Below are positions 12,148 to 17,436 of a stretch of DNA of 64,000 nucleotides, piece after piece (position 1 is the first letter of the stretch; the number at the start of each line of letters is the position of its first letter). The DNA is from Gemella morbillorum (GTDB lineage Bacteria > Bacillota > Bacilli > Staphylococcales > Gemellaceae), in the NCBI RefSeq assembly GCF_900476045.1, contig NZ_LS483440.1, forward strand, positions 310,001 through 374,000, read 5' to 3'. The notes under the pieces are model-generated. The model did no database searches. It was given only the letters and a program-made list of their open reading frames with translations, and was not told where the DNA came from. Both the position numbers and the translations under genes were made by a program.

Positions 12148-12176
12148 TTGACAATAAAAAAAATAGTTGCTATAAT
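12148..12176 (+). promoter_or_regulatory. near-consensus sigma-70-type promoter for the trp-type leader and operon
   Basis: TTGACA at 12148-12153 and TATAAT at 12171-12176 are separated by exactly 17 nt. This is one of the best promoters in the window. Transcription should begin near 12183, about 350 nt before trpX. Confidence 0.9.
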
Positions 12177-12212
12177 TGTACTCAAGTAATAAAAGTAAAG
12201 GAGAACAAATTC

Positions 12213-12269
12213 ATGAAACTGTATCGAGTTGACACATTACAACTGAATATTCGTTGGCAAAGCCACTAG
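12213..12269 (+). CDS. putative 18-residue leader peptide with a single Trp codon
   Basis: The peptide is MKLYRVDTLQLNIRWQSH, stop TAG. Support for translation: AAAGGAG at 12197-12203, nine bases before the ATG, and a consensus promoter just upstream. The single TGG codon is codon 15 of 18, three codons before the stop. The stop codon lies inside a segment (12263-12273) that can pair with 12320-12331, a region also able to pair with two other segments before a terminator. That is the layout of a transcription attenuator controlled by a peptide. The downstream genes are a TrpXYZ-type transporter, so Trp-dependent stalling is the natural guess. It could instead be an arrest peptide that senses free tryptophan. 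Confidence 0.7.
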   Translation: MKLYRVDTLQLNIRWQSH

Positions 12270-12384
12270 ATACGGAGTCGATCTTGTTCTTTTAGCATAG
12301 ATACGACTTCAAGAAGTTAGTATCTATGTGGATTATTTGTGATGATTAAGAAATGACCACATGGAGTTATCTGGGTGGTCTTTT
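12263..12384 (+). promoter_or_regulatory. attenuator with mutually exclusive hairpins
   Basis: Five segments: 1 = CCACTAGATAC (12263-12273, contains the leader stop); 2 = ATAGATAC (12297-12304); 3 = GTATCTATGTGG (12320-12331); 4 = GACCACAT (12355-12362); 5 = GTGGTC (12375-12380). Segment 3 can pair with 1 (one bulge), with 2 (8 bp plus an inner ACTT/AAGT helix), or with 4 through ATGTGG/CCACAT. Segment 4 can instead pair with 5 to form a terminator before TTTT. So 3:4 would be the antiterminator and 4:5 the terminator. A ribosome held at codon 15 would cover segment 1. The exact logic cannot be fixed by eye. Confidence 0.65.
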
Positions 12385-12420
12385 ATATTTATTTTATTAT
12401 AATTTAAATTTAAAAATTTA

Positions 12421-12453
12421 AGACTACTAGAGATAAAAACTAGTGGTCTTTTT
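12421..12453 (+). terminator. second terminator in the trp-type leader
   Basis: AGACTACTAG pairs with CTAGTGGTCT over 10 bp (one G-U pair) and is followed by five T. It lies 80 nt before trpX, after the first terminator-like hairpin at 12355-12384. Its 3' arm CTAGTGG is also an exact complement of CCACTAG at the leader-peptide stop. Confidence 0.75.
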
Positions 12454-12532
12454 ATATAGATACGCTTCTAAAATTATTAGTGATTATTATCAATTAAATA
12501 AATAAATGTATATATATTAAGGAGATTTTAAA

Positions 12533-13534
12533 ATGAAAATTAATAAAATTTTTATCAGTTTTATAGTATTATTAGTATGTGTTTTAGGGTATGGCTTATA
12601 TTCAAGTAATAAAGGTGAAGAAAAGAATGTAGAAGAAAAGAAAGTTAAAGTTGGTGTTTTACAATTACTTAGTCATCCAGCGCTAGATCAAATCTATAAA
12701 GGGTTAGAAGATGGATTAGCTAAAGAAGGATACACAGTTGGGAAAAACTTACAGCTAGATCTTCAAAATGCTCAAGGGGATCAAAGTAACCTTGTAAGTA
12801 TGGGGCAAAAGTTAGTAAGTGACAATAATGATCTTTTAGTTGGAATCACTACGCCAGCAACATTATCACTATCTAATGCGACAAAAGATAAGCCAATAAT
12901 TATGGCGGGAATTACTTATCCTGTAGAAGCAGGGTTGATTAAGAGTGAAAATAACCCAGGAAATAATATTACAGGCGTAAGTGATAGAACACCGATTAAG
13001 CAACAACTTGAAGTTATGAAACAAATCTTACCAAAAATGAAAAAAGTAGGAATTCTTTATACAGCAAGCGAAGATAATTCTGTAAAACAAGCACAAGAAG
13101 CTGAAAAGTTAGCGAAAGAATTAGGACTAGAAGTAAAAGTTTCAACAGTAGCAAACACTAATGATATTCAACAAGTTACTGAAACTCTTGCAGCAGAAAC
13201 TGATGCAATATTCGTGCCAATTGATAATACAATTGCTAGCGCAATGGCTACAGTTGTAAAAGTAACTGATGCGAAAAAGGTTCCGGTATTCCCGTCTTCT
13301 GATACAATGGTTGCAGATGGTGGATTACTTGGAATAGGAGTAGATCAATATAAAATAGGAATTGAAACTGCAAAAGTAATAGCTAAAGTATTAAAAGGTG
13401 CAGATACTAAAACAATGCCGGTTGTTCTTGCTAATGAAGGAGTTATCTATCTAAATGAGGCCAAAGCAAAACAATTAGGAATAGAAATTCCACAAGATAT
13501 TAAAGATAAAGCAAAAGTAGTAGATAAAAAATAA
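12533..13534 (+). CDS. trpX: TrpX-type ABC transporter substrate-binding protein
   Basis: 333-residue extracytoplasmic binding protein of the ABC_sub_bind family (COG2984), the family predicted to bind tryptophan in streptococci and bacilli. An N-terminal hydrophobic segment (residues 6-26) anchors or exports it; C16 sits in LLVC, a poor lipobox. The mature part starts KVKVGVLQLLSHPALDQIYKG and has two periplasmic-binding lobes, with the second around KKVGILYTASEDNSVKQAQEAEK. The ribosome binding site AAGGAG is 9 nt upstream. It is the first gene of a three-gene operon behind an attenuator-like leader. Substrate assignment rests on family and on the Trp codon in the leader. Confidence 0.85.
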   Translation: MKINKIFISFIVLLVCVLGYGLYSSNKGEEKNVEEKKVKVGVLQLLSHPALDQIYKGLEDGLAKEGYTVGKNLQLDLQNAQGDQSNLVSMGQKLVSDNNDLLVGITTPATLSLSNATKDKPIIMAGITYPVEAGLIKSENNPGNNITGVSDRTPIKQQLEVMKQILPKMKKVGILYTASEDNSVKQAQEAEKLAKELGLEVKVSTVANTNDIQQVTETLAAETDAIFVPIDNTIASAMATVVKVTDAKKVPVFPSSDTMVADGGLLGIGVDQYKIGIETAKVIAKVLKGADTKTMPVVLANEGVIYLNEAKAKQLGIEIPQDIKDKAKVVDKK

Positions 13535-13612: not shown

Positions 13613-14488
13613 ATGGATTTGATTATTTCGGCAATAGCCCAAGGTATGCTTTGGGGATTATTGTCATTAGGGTTATTTATAAGTTTTAGAGTGCTGAATA
13701 TAGCAGATATGACAACAGAGGGTGCTTACCCGTTAGGAGCAGGTGTCTGTGTTATATGCATTCACAATGGAATTAATCCAATTCTTGCGACAATAATAGC
13801 TATCATCGCGGGAATGATGGCAGGATTAGTTACAGGCTTTTTAATCACTATTTGCAAAATTCCAAGTTTATTAGCAGGTATTTTGACAATGACAGCATTA
13901 TTATCGGTTAACTTAAGAATTATGGGAAGACCTAATTTAAGTTTATTGAATAAGGAGACTATTTTTAGTAAATTCCAAAACTTAAATTTACCTAATCATT
14001 ACAATACGGTATTATTAGGATTTTTACTTTCAGTGATTATTATTGCGCTAATGTCACTATTTTTCTCTACAGAACTTGGCCAAAGTTTAATAGCTACAGG
14101 AGACAATGAGAAAATGGCAACTGCGCTTGGTATTTCAACTAAAGCTATGACTATTTTAGGTCTTATGCTTGCGAATGGAATTATCTCGTTAGCGGGAGCT
14201 ATTTTGGCACAAAACAACGGTTATTCTGATGTGAATAGTGGTATTGGTGTTATTGTAGTGGCACTAGCAGCGATTATTATAGGTGAAGTTATTTTTAAAG
14301 ATATGAGTTTTACTCAGCGTCTAGTTTGTGTAATTTTTGGTGCGATTATTTACCGTTTACTACTAGTAGGAGTATTGAAGTTGAACATTATAGGAGCAAA
14401 TGATTTCAAATTGGTATCAGCTTTAGTTATTGCATTATTCTTAACATTACCTCAACTGAAACTTAGAACTAAGAGAAAGGGTGTGTAG
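13613..14488 (+). CDS. trpY: TrpY-type ABC transporter permease
   Basis: 291-residue membrane permease of COG4120, the partner of TrpX and TrpZ. Hydrophobic throughout, with about eight or nine spans. The segment SFRVLNIADMTTEGAYPLGAGV near residue 25 and the late loop GQSLIATGDNEKMATALGIS near 160, which should face the ATPase, resemble branched-chain amino acid (LivH-like) permeases. The ribosome binding site AGAGGTG precedes the ATG. The ATPase gene follows after 3 nt, so the two are tightly coupled. Confidence 0.87.
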   Translation: MDLIISAIAQGMLWGLLSLGLFISFRVLNIADMTTEGAYPLGAGVCVICIHNGINPILATIIAIIAGMMAGLVTGFLITICKIPSLLAGILTMTALLSVNLRIMGRPNLSLLNKETIFSKFQNLNLPNHYNTVLLGFLLSVIIIALMSLFFSTELGQSLIATGDNEKMATALGISTKAMTILGLMLANGIISLAGAILAQNNGYSDVNSGIGVIVVALAAIIIGEVIFKDMSFTQRLVCVIFGAIIYRLLLVGVLKLNIIGANDFKLVSALVIALFLTLPQLKLRTKRKGV

Positions 14489-14491
14489 TAG

Positions 14492-15265
14492 ATGTCATTT
14501 ATAGAAATAAAAAATTTAGATAAAACTTTTTTCCCTGGAACTAATAGAGAACAATATGCCTTGAAAAATGTGAACTTGGATATTAAGGCTGGAGATTTTA
14601 TTACGATTTTAGGAGGAAACGGTGCTGGTAAATCTACTTTTTTAAATGCGCTTGCTGGCTCTTTTTCTTTGGACAATGGGAAAATTATAATCGAAGGAAA
14701 AGATGTTAGTAATATTGTTGAACACAAGAGAGCGGAATTTATAAGTCGTGTTTTCCAAAATCCTTTGGATGGGACAGCTCCACGTATGACTGTTGCTCAG
14801 AATATGTCATTAGCATTGCGACGTGGTAAAAACCGTGGATTTAAATTAGGCACTACAAAAGAGGATAGAAAACTTTTTAAAGAACTACTTGCGACATTAG
14901 ATTTAGGACTTGAGGATAGACTCGATAGCGAGATGGGATTATTGTCTGGTGGGCAGCGTCAAGCAATTGCGCTTCTTATGGCAACGATGACTACTCCAAA
15001 ACTTTTGCTTCTTGATGAACATACAGCAGCATTAGATCCAAAAACACAGAAAAAAATTATGGAATTAACACGCAAAAAAATTGAAGAGAAGAATTTAACC
15101 GCATTAATGATTACTCATAATATTCAAGATGCTGTGAAATATGGTAATAGAATTATTATTCTTCATAGAGGACAGTTAGTTCGCGATATAAATCGTGAGG
15201 AAAAAGAAAAGTTAAATGCTAAAGAATTATACGAGTTATTGTATAATCTAGAAGAAAGTGAATAA
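14492..15265 (+). CDS. trpZ: TrpZ-type ABC transporter ATP-binding protein
   Basis: 257-residue ABC ATPase of COG1101. Walker A GGNGAGKST near residue 41, Q-loop VFQNPLDGTAPRMT near 89, signature LSGGQRQAIALLMA near 152, Walker B LLLLDEHTAALDP near 171 and the H-loop MITHN near 207 are all present; the GTAPRMT insertion after the Q-loop is typical of this family. It drives uptake through TrpY with TrpX. The stop is followed by a good terminator. Confidence 0.92.
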   Translation: MSFIEIKNLDKTFFPGTNREQYALKNVNLDIKAGDFITILGGNGAGKSTFLNALAGSFSLDNGKIIIEGKDVSNIVEHKRAEFISRVFQNPLDGTAPRMTVAQNMSLALRRGKNRGFKLGTTKEDRKLFKELLATLDLGLEDRLDSEMGLLSGGQRQAIALLMATMTTPKLLLLDEHTAALDPKTQKKIMELTRKKIEEKNLTALMITHNIQDAVKYGNRIIILHRGQLVRDINREEKEKLNAKELYELLYNLEESE

Positions 15266-15437: not shown

Positions 15438-16109
15438 ATGAAAATACTTGTTGTTGAAGATGAAAAAGATTTGAATAGAGTAATAACAAAACATTTGAAA
15501 AAGAATAATTATAGCGTTGATAGTTGTTTTGACGGGGAGCAAGCACTAGATTATGTTTTATACGGGGAATATGATCTGATTATAACTGATATTATGATGC
15601 CAAAAGTAGATGGTTATCAATTTATAAAACAATTGCGAAATAAAAAGAATACAACACCCGTAATAATGCTCACAGCCAAAGATAGTTTAGATGATAAAAT
15701 TTTAGGTCTAGATAGTGGTGCTGATGATTATATTGTAAAACCATTTGAATTTGATGAACTTTTAGCACGTATAAGAGTACTTATGCGTAGAAATTATGGG
15801 TTTGCAACAAATATTATTCAAGTAGATGATGTTGTTTTAGATATTTCTAAAAAGCAGGTAACGCGATCTGGTGAAAGTATAGTTTTAACAGGAAAAGAAT
15901 ACGAAGTATTGGAATATTTATTTAAAAATAAGACGGGGATTATTAGTCGGGAACAAATTTTAAATCATGTGTGGGACTATGATTACGAAGGGGTGTCTAA
16001 TATAATCGATGTTATTGTAAAAAATATTAGAAAAAAATTAGATGTAGGTTCGAAAAAACCGATTATTCACACGAAGAGAGGGTTAGGTTATTTTGTTAAA
16101 GAAGATTAA
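15438..16109 (+). CDS. OmpR-family response regulator
   Basis: 223-residue response regulator: receiver domain (1-118) with phospho-acceptor D51 in TDIMMPKVDG, the conserved Thr in MLTAKD and Lys in IVKPFE; C-terminal winged helix (about 128-223) ending in IIHTKRGLGYFVKED. The next gene is its sensor kinase, overlapping by 17 bases. With the PepSY gene after them, the set resembles YkoG-YkoH with YkoI/YkoJ of Bacillus subtilis. Its own promoter has a TTCAT-N6-TTCAT box that it may bind. Signal unknown. Confidence 0.93.
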   Translation: MKILVVEDEKDLNRVITKHLKKNNYSVDSCFDGEQALDYVLYGEYDLIITDIMMPKVDGYQFIKQLRNKKNTTPVIMLTAKDSLDDKILGLDSGADDYIVKPFEFDELLARIRVLMRRNYGFATNIIQVDDVVLDISKKQVTRSGESIVLTGKEYEVLEYLFKNKTGIISREQILNHVWDYDYEGVSNIIDVIVKNIRKKLDVGSKKPIIHTKRGLGYFVKED

Positions 16110-17436
16110 AGAAATTATATTTAAGCCGTTTAGGAGAATTACTTTAACGTTTAAAATTACTCTATGGTATACAATTTTCATAGTAATATTATTAACCTCT
16201 ATTATTTTAGGGACATTTTTTGTTAGTGATAGTGTTGTAGAAAGCTCAGGTAAAAAGAAGTTAATAGAAGAAGTTACGGAGATTTCTAATGGGAAAGAAA
16301 ATTTTACAGCATTTGAAGATGGTGTAACTTTGTCATTATACGATAAAGATGGAAATTTAATTGCGGGTAGTATACCGAAAAATTTTGATGTTCGAGATTT
16401 TAGTTTGGGTGTTGTTACATATTATACAGATTCTAACAATAATAAATATATGTATTACGATATAGAAACGAATTCGGAAAAATTTGCCAATGGTAAGTAT
16501 GTTCGTGGTATTGTTCAAATATCAAGCGGTCAAACAAGTTGGTATCTTCCTTTTGCTATAATTGCAGGAAGTCCAATAATTATTTTAATCATAACGTATG
16601 GGGGTTATTTGATAATTAGAAGTTCTTTAAAACCTGTACGCGAAATGATAGAAACGGCAGAAACAATAAGTAATAGTGCAGATTTAAGTAAAAGAATAAC
16701 GATAGAAGATGGAAAAGATGAAGTTCATAAACTAGCTCTAGTTTTCAATGAAATGTTAGAATCGTTAGAGCGCGCCTCTATGAGAGAACGACAGTTTAGT
16801 TCGGATGTATCCCATGAATTGCGAACACCAATATCGGTTATTGTTGCTGAGAGTGAATATGGTACGAAATACATAGATACAGTTGGTGAGGCAAAGGAAT
16901 CATTTGCGGTAATTAAGCGCCAAAGTAAGAGAATGACAACTATGATAAATCAAATTTTAGAAATGGCAAGATTAGATAATAGATTAGAAATTCCTAAAGA
17001 AACTTTTAATTTATCTAGTTGTTTAGAAAAAACATTAGAAGACTATAAAAAATTATTTGTGAGTAAAAATATTCAATTAATATCCAATATAGAGGAGAAT
17101 ATAACAGTATTTGGGAACCGTGTGCTGTTAATGCGTTTAATTGATAATTTAATATCCAATGCTTTAAAACATGCTACGTCTAAGACGTGGATTTCAGTAG
17201 TGAAAAGAAAGAGTATAATTATTGAGATTAAAGATGATGGCAAAGGAATAGATGATAAAGAAAAAGAATATATTTGGGATAGATTCTACAAAGTGGACAA
17301 ATCAAGAAGTATATCAGAAGATAATTCTTCAGGATTAGGGTTACCTATTTCTAAAAAAATAGTCGAATTACATGGTGGGAAAATAGTAGCCTTAGATAAT
17401 AAACCGCAAGGCGCAAAGTTTGTAATTAACTTATAA
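16093..17436 (+). CDS. sensor histidine kinase
   Basis: 447-residue membrane sensor. Two spans (about 22-44 and 152-176) enclose an extracellular domain of about 105 residues with no recognisable sensor fold. A HAMP segment follows, then the DHp helix with H241 in FSSDVSHELRTPIS, and an ATPase domain with NLISNALKHA, DDGKGID and SSGLGLPISKK motifs. The likely start is TTG at 16093, inside the regulator gene; there is no ATG near by with a better site. Partner of the regulator just upstream. Confidence 0.92.
   Translation: MLKKIKEIIFKPFRRITLTFKITLWYTIFIVILLTSIILGTFFVSDSVVESSGKKKLIEEVTEISNGKENFTAFEDGVTLSLYDKDGNLIAGSIPKNFDVRDFSLGVVTYYTDSNNNKYMYYDIETNSEKFANGKYVRGIVQISSGQTSWYLPFAIIAGSPIIILIITYGGYLIIRSSLKPVREMIETAETISNSADLSKRITIEDGKDEVHKLALVFNEMLESLERASMRERQFSSDVSHELRTPISVIVAESEYGTKYIDTVGEAKESFAVIKRQSKRMTTMINQILEMARLDNRLEIPKETFNLSSCLEKTLEDYKKLFVSKNIQLISNIEENITVFGNRVLLMRLIDNLISNALKHATSKTWISVVKRKSIIIEIKDDGKGIDDKEKEYIWDRFYKVDKSRSISEDNSSGLGLPISKKIVELHGGKIVALDNKPQGAKFVINL

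Follow-up and report, generated by a model that had tools for sequence, protein, structure and literature searches.

The trpX locus of Gemella morbillorum

We analysed a stretch of 64,000 nucleotides from Gemella morbillorum (contig NZ_LS483440.1, positions 310,001 to 374,000), here called the window, and all coordinates below are given in its own numbering. It carries the tryptophan transporter operon trpXYZ, and upstream of trpX lies a leader with a short open reading frame (ORF), a set of alternative pairings and two tandem terminators. Judging from the sequence and from modelled folding, this leader is very probably (at roughly 88%) a ribosome-mediated transcription attenuator which senses charged tRNA-Trp. 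The basis for this is the conserved ORF, the spacing of its control codon, the coevolving alternative pairings, the simulated dependence on ribosome position and the swap of control codons with gene function. The features of the locus are the following; segments are numbered in the order in which they are transcribed.

12148-12176, + strand: sigma-70 promoter TTGACA-N17-TATAAT with a TG extension (12/12 consensus matches)
12197-12203, + strand: Shine-Dalgarno (SD) sequence AAAGGAG of the leader ORF, recognised by sequence and retained in relatives
12213-12269, + strand: leader peptide ORF encoding MKLYRVDTLQLNIRWQSH, 18 codons, ATG at 12213, stop codon TAG at 12267-12269
12255-12257, + strand: Trp control codon (codon 15), 20 nt 5' of helix 1:2
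12263-12273, + strand: segment 1a, CCACTAGATAC, including the stop codon; partner: segment 3
12275-12284, + strand: segment 1b, GAGTCGATCT; partner: AGATACGACTT at 12299-12309 (helix 1:2)
12296-12310, + strand: segment 2, CATAGATACGACTTC; partners: 1b or 3
12320-12331, + strand: segment 3, GTATCTATGTGG; partners: 2, 1a or 4
12355-12384, + strand: terminator 1
12355-12364, + strand: segment 4, GACCACATGG, the 5' arm of terminator 1
12371-12384, + strand: segment 5, CTGGGTGGTC with a U-run, the 3' arm of terminator 1
12420-12454, + strand: terminator 2, with arm 6 at 12420-12430, arm 7 at 12440-12450 and a U-run
12533-13534, + strand: trpX, tryptophan ABC transporter substrate-binding protein (NF041285, 450 bits against a cut-off of 390; PF04392)
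13613-14488, + strand: trpY, permease (PF02653)
14492-15265, + strand: trpZ, ATPase (PF00005)

An earlier note, made from the sequence alone, had pointed to the promoter, the AAAGGAG and the 18-codon ORF with Trp at codon 15, and all of these were confirmed; the -35 and -10 boxes were also found in the aligned Gemella leaders. It had placed the stop codon within a segment that pairs with 12320-12331, which is the case for 12263-12273, and had given 12320-12331 alternative partners, one of them in the first terminator stem. Segment 3 is indeed complementary to CATAGATAC (12296-12304) and to CCACATGG (12357-12364), the latter in the 5' arm of that stem. The proposed TrpXYZ-type transporter was borne out as well, since TrpX passes the NCBIfam equivalog cut-off (NF041285). 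CTAGTGG of the second terminator (12440-12446) is complementary to CCACTAG (12263-12269). The leader fold is more stable than 200 of 200 dinucleotide shuffles (z -3.9). Both terminators were recognised by eye and in alignments, and a simple terminator scan overlooked both.

There is one copy of the leader in the complete 1.76 Mb genome, in which a full-length trpB was not found; we count the latter in favour of an attenuator of Trp import. The T-box family RF00230 has no match in the window or at trpX and 17 matches elsewhere in the genome, and none of the known Rfam riboswitches gave a match in the window at gathering level.

Conservation of the leader and its control codons

The leader precedes trpX in Gemella, its sister genus and Granulicatella, and two records that bear the names Carnobacterium and Streptococcus (names as given in the records) have an identical leader type. 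The peptides of Gemellaceae, Granulicatella and the others share the C-terminal LNxRWQSH and have the bases CGYTGGCAAAGCCACTAG in common. We built a covariance model (R1) from 15 leaders and obtained matches in 261 of the 395 sampled Lactobacillales genomes (E <= 0.1). By ORF scan, 29 of the 30 best R1 loci precede a TrpX-like protein; the one that does not, L160, is almost the same as neighbouring loci, with an ORF that is broken or misread. A TrpX-like protein is also downstream in most of 60 further regions, among which trpB follows the leader at L202 and L219. In the window and in the homologues the short leader ORF is translatable, with a start codon, an SD sequence and a stop codon, as in a ribosome-mediated attenuator. 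Since both the ORF and the hairpins are kept in the relatives, the leader arrangement is far beyond chance. Literature searches, outside the subscription literature, returned no earlier report of these leader peptides.

The first Trp codon stands about 19-20 nt (mostly 18-22) from the helix 1:2 motif in most homologues. The position of the stop codon drifts from W+9 to W+30, that is, 9 to 30 nt after Trp, and because of this variation the stop codon was ruled out as a fixed sensor. The spacing was measured by motif, and a duplex-folding estimate of the helix start was noisy (standard deviation 3.0 nt) and was set aside. A second, independent set of leaders was chosen by RF04312, the Rfam trpB motif, rather than by the leader model. 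Trp is within the last ten codons in 37 of these 39 leaders, and L262 is a 38th Trp leader in the proper frame, MTPTQLREWQNWHR; it is the same element as L351. However, 28% of background short ORFs also have Trp in their last 10 codons, which makes this criterion weak alone, and it is the fixed spacing and the context that carry the argument. Two Trp codons (WQNWRR) occur in many relatives, and almost all leaders of the 30 best Streptococcus matches have WQSW, WQNW or WRDW at their end.

A different set of codons is found in paralogous leaders. One leader of the Streptococcus set (L349) carries NFYFSYFR, and the pattern LNNFYFSYF was found in 16 Lactobacillales genomes. These leaders, LNNFYFSYFR, show synonymous variation in their Leu, Asn and Tyr codons. 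Phe/Tyr leaders precede aroE (L303, L307, L310) or a TrpX paralogue, and in Streptococcus suis and S. danieliae YFYSYF or YFYGYF leaders lie ahead of similar proteins. Both leader kinds, each 5' of its own binding protein, are present in the four genomes checked (L180/L181, L183/L184, L200/L201 and L204/L205). The control codons fit the downstream genes, with Trp for trpX/trpB and Phe/Tyr for aroE and the TrpX paralogue. A riboswitch would hardly account for control codons that shift with the pathway within one and the same RNA frame. The Phe/Tyr leader ahead of aroE suggests that a shikimate-pathway operon of Lactobacillales would be controlled by attenuation.

Some further loci were observed alongside. 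An exception to the match of codon and function is L166, where an LNTRWQSH leader lies ahead of an OppA-like lipoprotein; L166 is itself the second copy in the genome that also carries L136. At L207 the next ORF after the leader is reverse-transcriptase-like and may belong to a group II intron that has entered between the leader and its target gene. The Phe/Tyr leaders L181, L184 and L201 have sub-threshold matches to RF02863 (Enterococcus sRNA 2410), and this small RNA (sRNA) may represent such a leader after termination. In the window, response regulator and sensor kinase genes (15438-17436) lie directly 3' of trpZ.

Alternative pairings and the position of the ribosome

We compared the duplex energy of each segment with its own partner and with partners swapped between species (2000 permutations). 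The own partner was better for 1:2 (z -10.3), 1:3 (z -8.5), 2:3 (z -7.0), 3:4 (z -5.9) and 4:5 (z -21.3), and for each of these swapped pairings were as good as the own ones in 0 of 2000 permutations. The control pairings 1:4, 2:4 and 2:5 had no own-partner advantage in this test. A pairing of segment 3 with terminator 2 (3:6) was dropped, its support being weak (z -2.3). GAGTCG:CGACTC forms helix 1:2 in Gemella; elsewhere its place is taken by AGGTTGT:ACAGCCT or AGGTTGT:ACAACCT. An alignment of 80 rows was fitted to 2:3 and 4:5, not to 3:4. For 2:3 and 4:5, 95.1% of the cells are paired, with both-sided changes at 13 of 16 pairs (7 of 10 for 2:3 alone); for 3:4, 93.4% are paired, with both-sided changes at 6 of 8 pairs. 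The mutually exclusive pairings end in an intrinsic terminator, as in an attenuator. Two checks that the earlier note had suggested, for leader peptides ending in RWQSH 5' of trpX in related genomes and for covariation of the leader segments, came out positive, with conserved peptides and with signal in both the swap test and the pair counts.

The effect of the ribosome was simulated in 82 homologues. Each transcript was folded as far as the loop of the terminator, when arm 5 has yet to be made, with the ribosome-covered stretch barred from pairing, and the fraction of arm 4 held by upstream RNA was taken as the readout. Terminator 1 was assigned by model coordinates, and L032 remains misassigned. 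The mean sequestration of arm 4 reached its maximum, 0.75, with Trp in the A site and kept a plateau to +6; it was 0.37 at +21, 0.41 at the real stop codon and 0.40 without a ribosome. Positions beyond +33, which are unreachable on the leader ORF, again gave high sequestration because segment 2 is then covered. The value at Trp exceeded that at the stop codon by >0.1 in 74 of the 82 homologues and was lower in one. Shuffling of the sequence between Trp and arm 4 abolished the effect (mean difference 0.004 vs 0.334). In silico, the position of the ribosome decides the fold in 74/82 homologues and weakly in the window, which supports the layout of ribosome-controlled termination that had been claimed for the leader.

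We propose that when Trp is scarce the ribosome would pause when the Trp codon (12255) occupies its A site and would cover 1a, so that 1a:3 is barred and 1b stays free. Helix 1b:2 would then form, segment 3 would capture arm 4 of the terminator, and transcription would continue into trpXYZ. With ample Trp the ribosome would advance toward the stop codon and cover 1b; 2:3 and then 4:5 would form and transcription would end. Without a ribosome, 1a:3 or 2:3 would likewise leave the terminator free. The stalling itself and the response to Trp are what we infer from the pairings and the simulated folds.

Several points weigh against this mechanism. The leader peptide of the window has a single Trp codon, which is few for a classical leader. 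The permutation tests ignore phylogeny; the control pairings share the same phylogeny but do not take out the effect of relatedness. The folding was done at equilibrium rather than co-transcriptionally. In the window the effect is small, with a sequestration of 0.98 at Trp vs 0.90 at the stop codon for a leading edge of 12 nt, and 0.72-0.82 at the stop when the edge is set 2-4 nt farther on; this small difference makes the switch of the window itself the weakest point. Finally, simple codon counting leaves unexplained the base-level conservation of TGGCAA and AGC around the Trp codon and the frequent LN at -4/-3.

Of the 82 homologous loci, 75 have a second terminator behind the first. Arm 5, once released, could pair with arm 6, so that read-through of terminator 1 may, less certainly than the first switch, disarm terminator 2. 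The own 5:6 duplex is better than swapped ones (-8.1 vs -5.7 kcal/mol, z -10), most strongly in the Gemella group, and that of the window ranks with the clearest cases (-10.1 kcal/mol, with a shuffled fraction of 0.00 in 200). This complementarity suggests a domino of two switches at tandem terminators. However, the control pairing 4:7 is likewise positive (z -6.1), as required if the two terminators are alike, and we therefore treat a functional 5:6 pairing as a hypothesis and not as a result. The full version, which we put forward tentatively, has seven segments: one ribosome at one aromatic codon would set 1:2, 3:4 and 5:6 against 2:3, 4:5 and 6:7 and throw both terminators, with LNxRWQ assisting through the nascent peptide or the codon context, and the whole would be a family-wide module re-aimed between Trp and Phe/Tyr by a swap of the control codon.

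For this part alone there is a rival with nearly an even chance of being right, namely an ordinary attenuator in which terminator 2 is a constitutive back-up outside the switch. It would account for a 5:6 complementarity that is weak in several lineages and beats shuffles at the 5% level in 32 of the 75 loci, and the likeness of the two terminators alone would yield both 5:6 and 4:7. Against it stand the advantage of the own 5:6 partner, in the family and in the window, and the consideration that a terminator which is always on would shut off the gene.

The conserved residues around Trp bear on another rival, an arrest of the TnaC kind, in which LNxRWQS would act within the exit tunnel of the ribosome and stalling would depend on free tryptophan or a different small molecule. 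CAA follows Trp in 72 of 73 distinct leaders (Arg in one), and TGGCAA is near-invariant, a count which the TGGC[AG]A pattern used to collect the leaders partly favours. Roughly half of the 73 retain LN at -4/-3, with Leu at -4 using five codons, and QLNNFYFSYFR is maintained despite synonymous changes. In the window (12255-12263) and its relatives, TGGCAA(AGC) is conserved nearly at nucleotide level with no evident pairing partner. A UGGC-AAA-GCCA mini-hairpin as the cause of the conserved TGGCAAAGCCA was ruled out, as relatives carry TGGCAAAACTGG, TGGCAAACTTGG and TGGCAAGTCGAC. A contribution of the nascent peptide to the leader action is possible. As the sole mechanism, however, arrest is unlikely: the non-aromatic residues vary across the family, as do leader length and N-terminus, and the Trp-to-stop distance of 9-30 nt is unlike a stall at the stop codon and lacks the fixed value of a TnaC-type arrest peptide.

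Comparison with known systems

The proposed attenuator is related to the trpB motif (RF04312, SRC-39-1), which has >900 members and was called a "strong riboswitch candidate" by authors who left a classic attenuator possible (Narunsky et al. 2024, PMC11109978). With the threshold relaxed, its model gives a full-length match at 12294-12390 (44.9 bits, E 3.4e-5), below the gathering cut-off of 59 bits, a score that some of the homologues retrieved with the Gemella-built model exceed. As a Trp attenuator, the element is new to the databases. RF04312 and the window both have hairpin 2:3 and then the terminator hairpin 4:5, 5' of trpB or amino-acid ABC transporters. The RF04312 model begins at segment 2, so the peptide ORF is left out, and it is also without segment 1 and the second terminator. 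Four RF04312 matches outside Lactobacillales were checked, of which L226 has a Trp leader and L227 a Phe-rich one, while L229 and L230 look like chance. The L227 element (1501-1621), in a distant Bacillota genome, combines the leader MNYINNFNLKIQIFFNNHFR with an RF04312-like RNA; the ORF after it is transporter-like and resembles an NSS-type symporter, with no NCBIfam match.

In Streptococcus agalactiae, RNA-seq revealed that transcription ends prematurely ahead of the operons of two paralogous ABC transporters (gbs1262, gbs2033), with similar elements before trpB of Fusobacterium nucleatum and aroFBC-tyrA of Enterococcus faecium, and aromatic amino acid riboswitches were proposed (Rosinski-Chupin et al. 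2015, PMC4448216). From their gene context, the gbs1262 and gbs2033 elements would be the Trp and Phe/Tyr leader types. A genuine riboswitch, with tryptophan or a related metabolite as its ligand and the small ORF incidental, is favoured by the authors of both papers and would fit structured, covarying hairpins with a terminator, but we consider it very improbable, because a leader ORF with its control codon at a fixed distance lies 5' of nearly every match examined, the codons turn to Phe/Tyr, with synonymous variation, before aroE and the paralogues, and the conserved segments are accounted for by the alternative pairings.

If the attenuator reading is true, it gives a mechanism to an orphan riboswitch candidate of >900 reported members and to two unexplained regulatory RNAs detected by RNA-seq. 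The signal of each copy would be predictable from its leader codons, and looking for a small molecule bound by the trpB motif would be the wrong experiment. Leader-peptide attenuation has so far been known mainly from Proteobacteria and Actinobacteria. Our results suggest that it is a common control of aromatic amino-acid supply in Lactobacillales and Gemella.

In S. suis, trpX is controlled by a T-box (PMC9382623). The transporter operon and the expected physiological signal are the same as in the window, but a T-box reads the tRNA directly without translation, and the window leader has no T-box match. Histidine leaders in Bacillus have been described as attenuators (Naville and Gautheret 2010, PMC2965389). 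These leaders and E. coli trpL resemble the window in having a short ORF with a control codon, alternative hairpins and an intrinsic terminator. To our knowledge, there is no sequence relation between them and the window leader. Unlike E. coli trpL, the window has one Trp codon, the extra pairing 1:3 and possibly a linked tandem terminator. In trpL the stalled ribosome blocks the first helix, whereas in our proposal it would free it.
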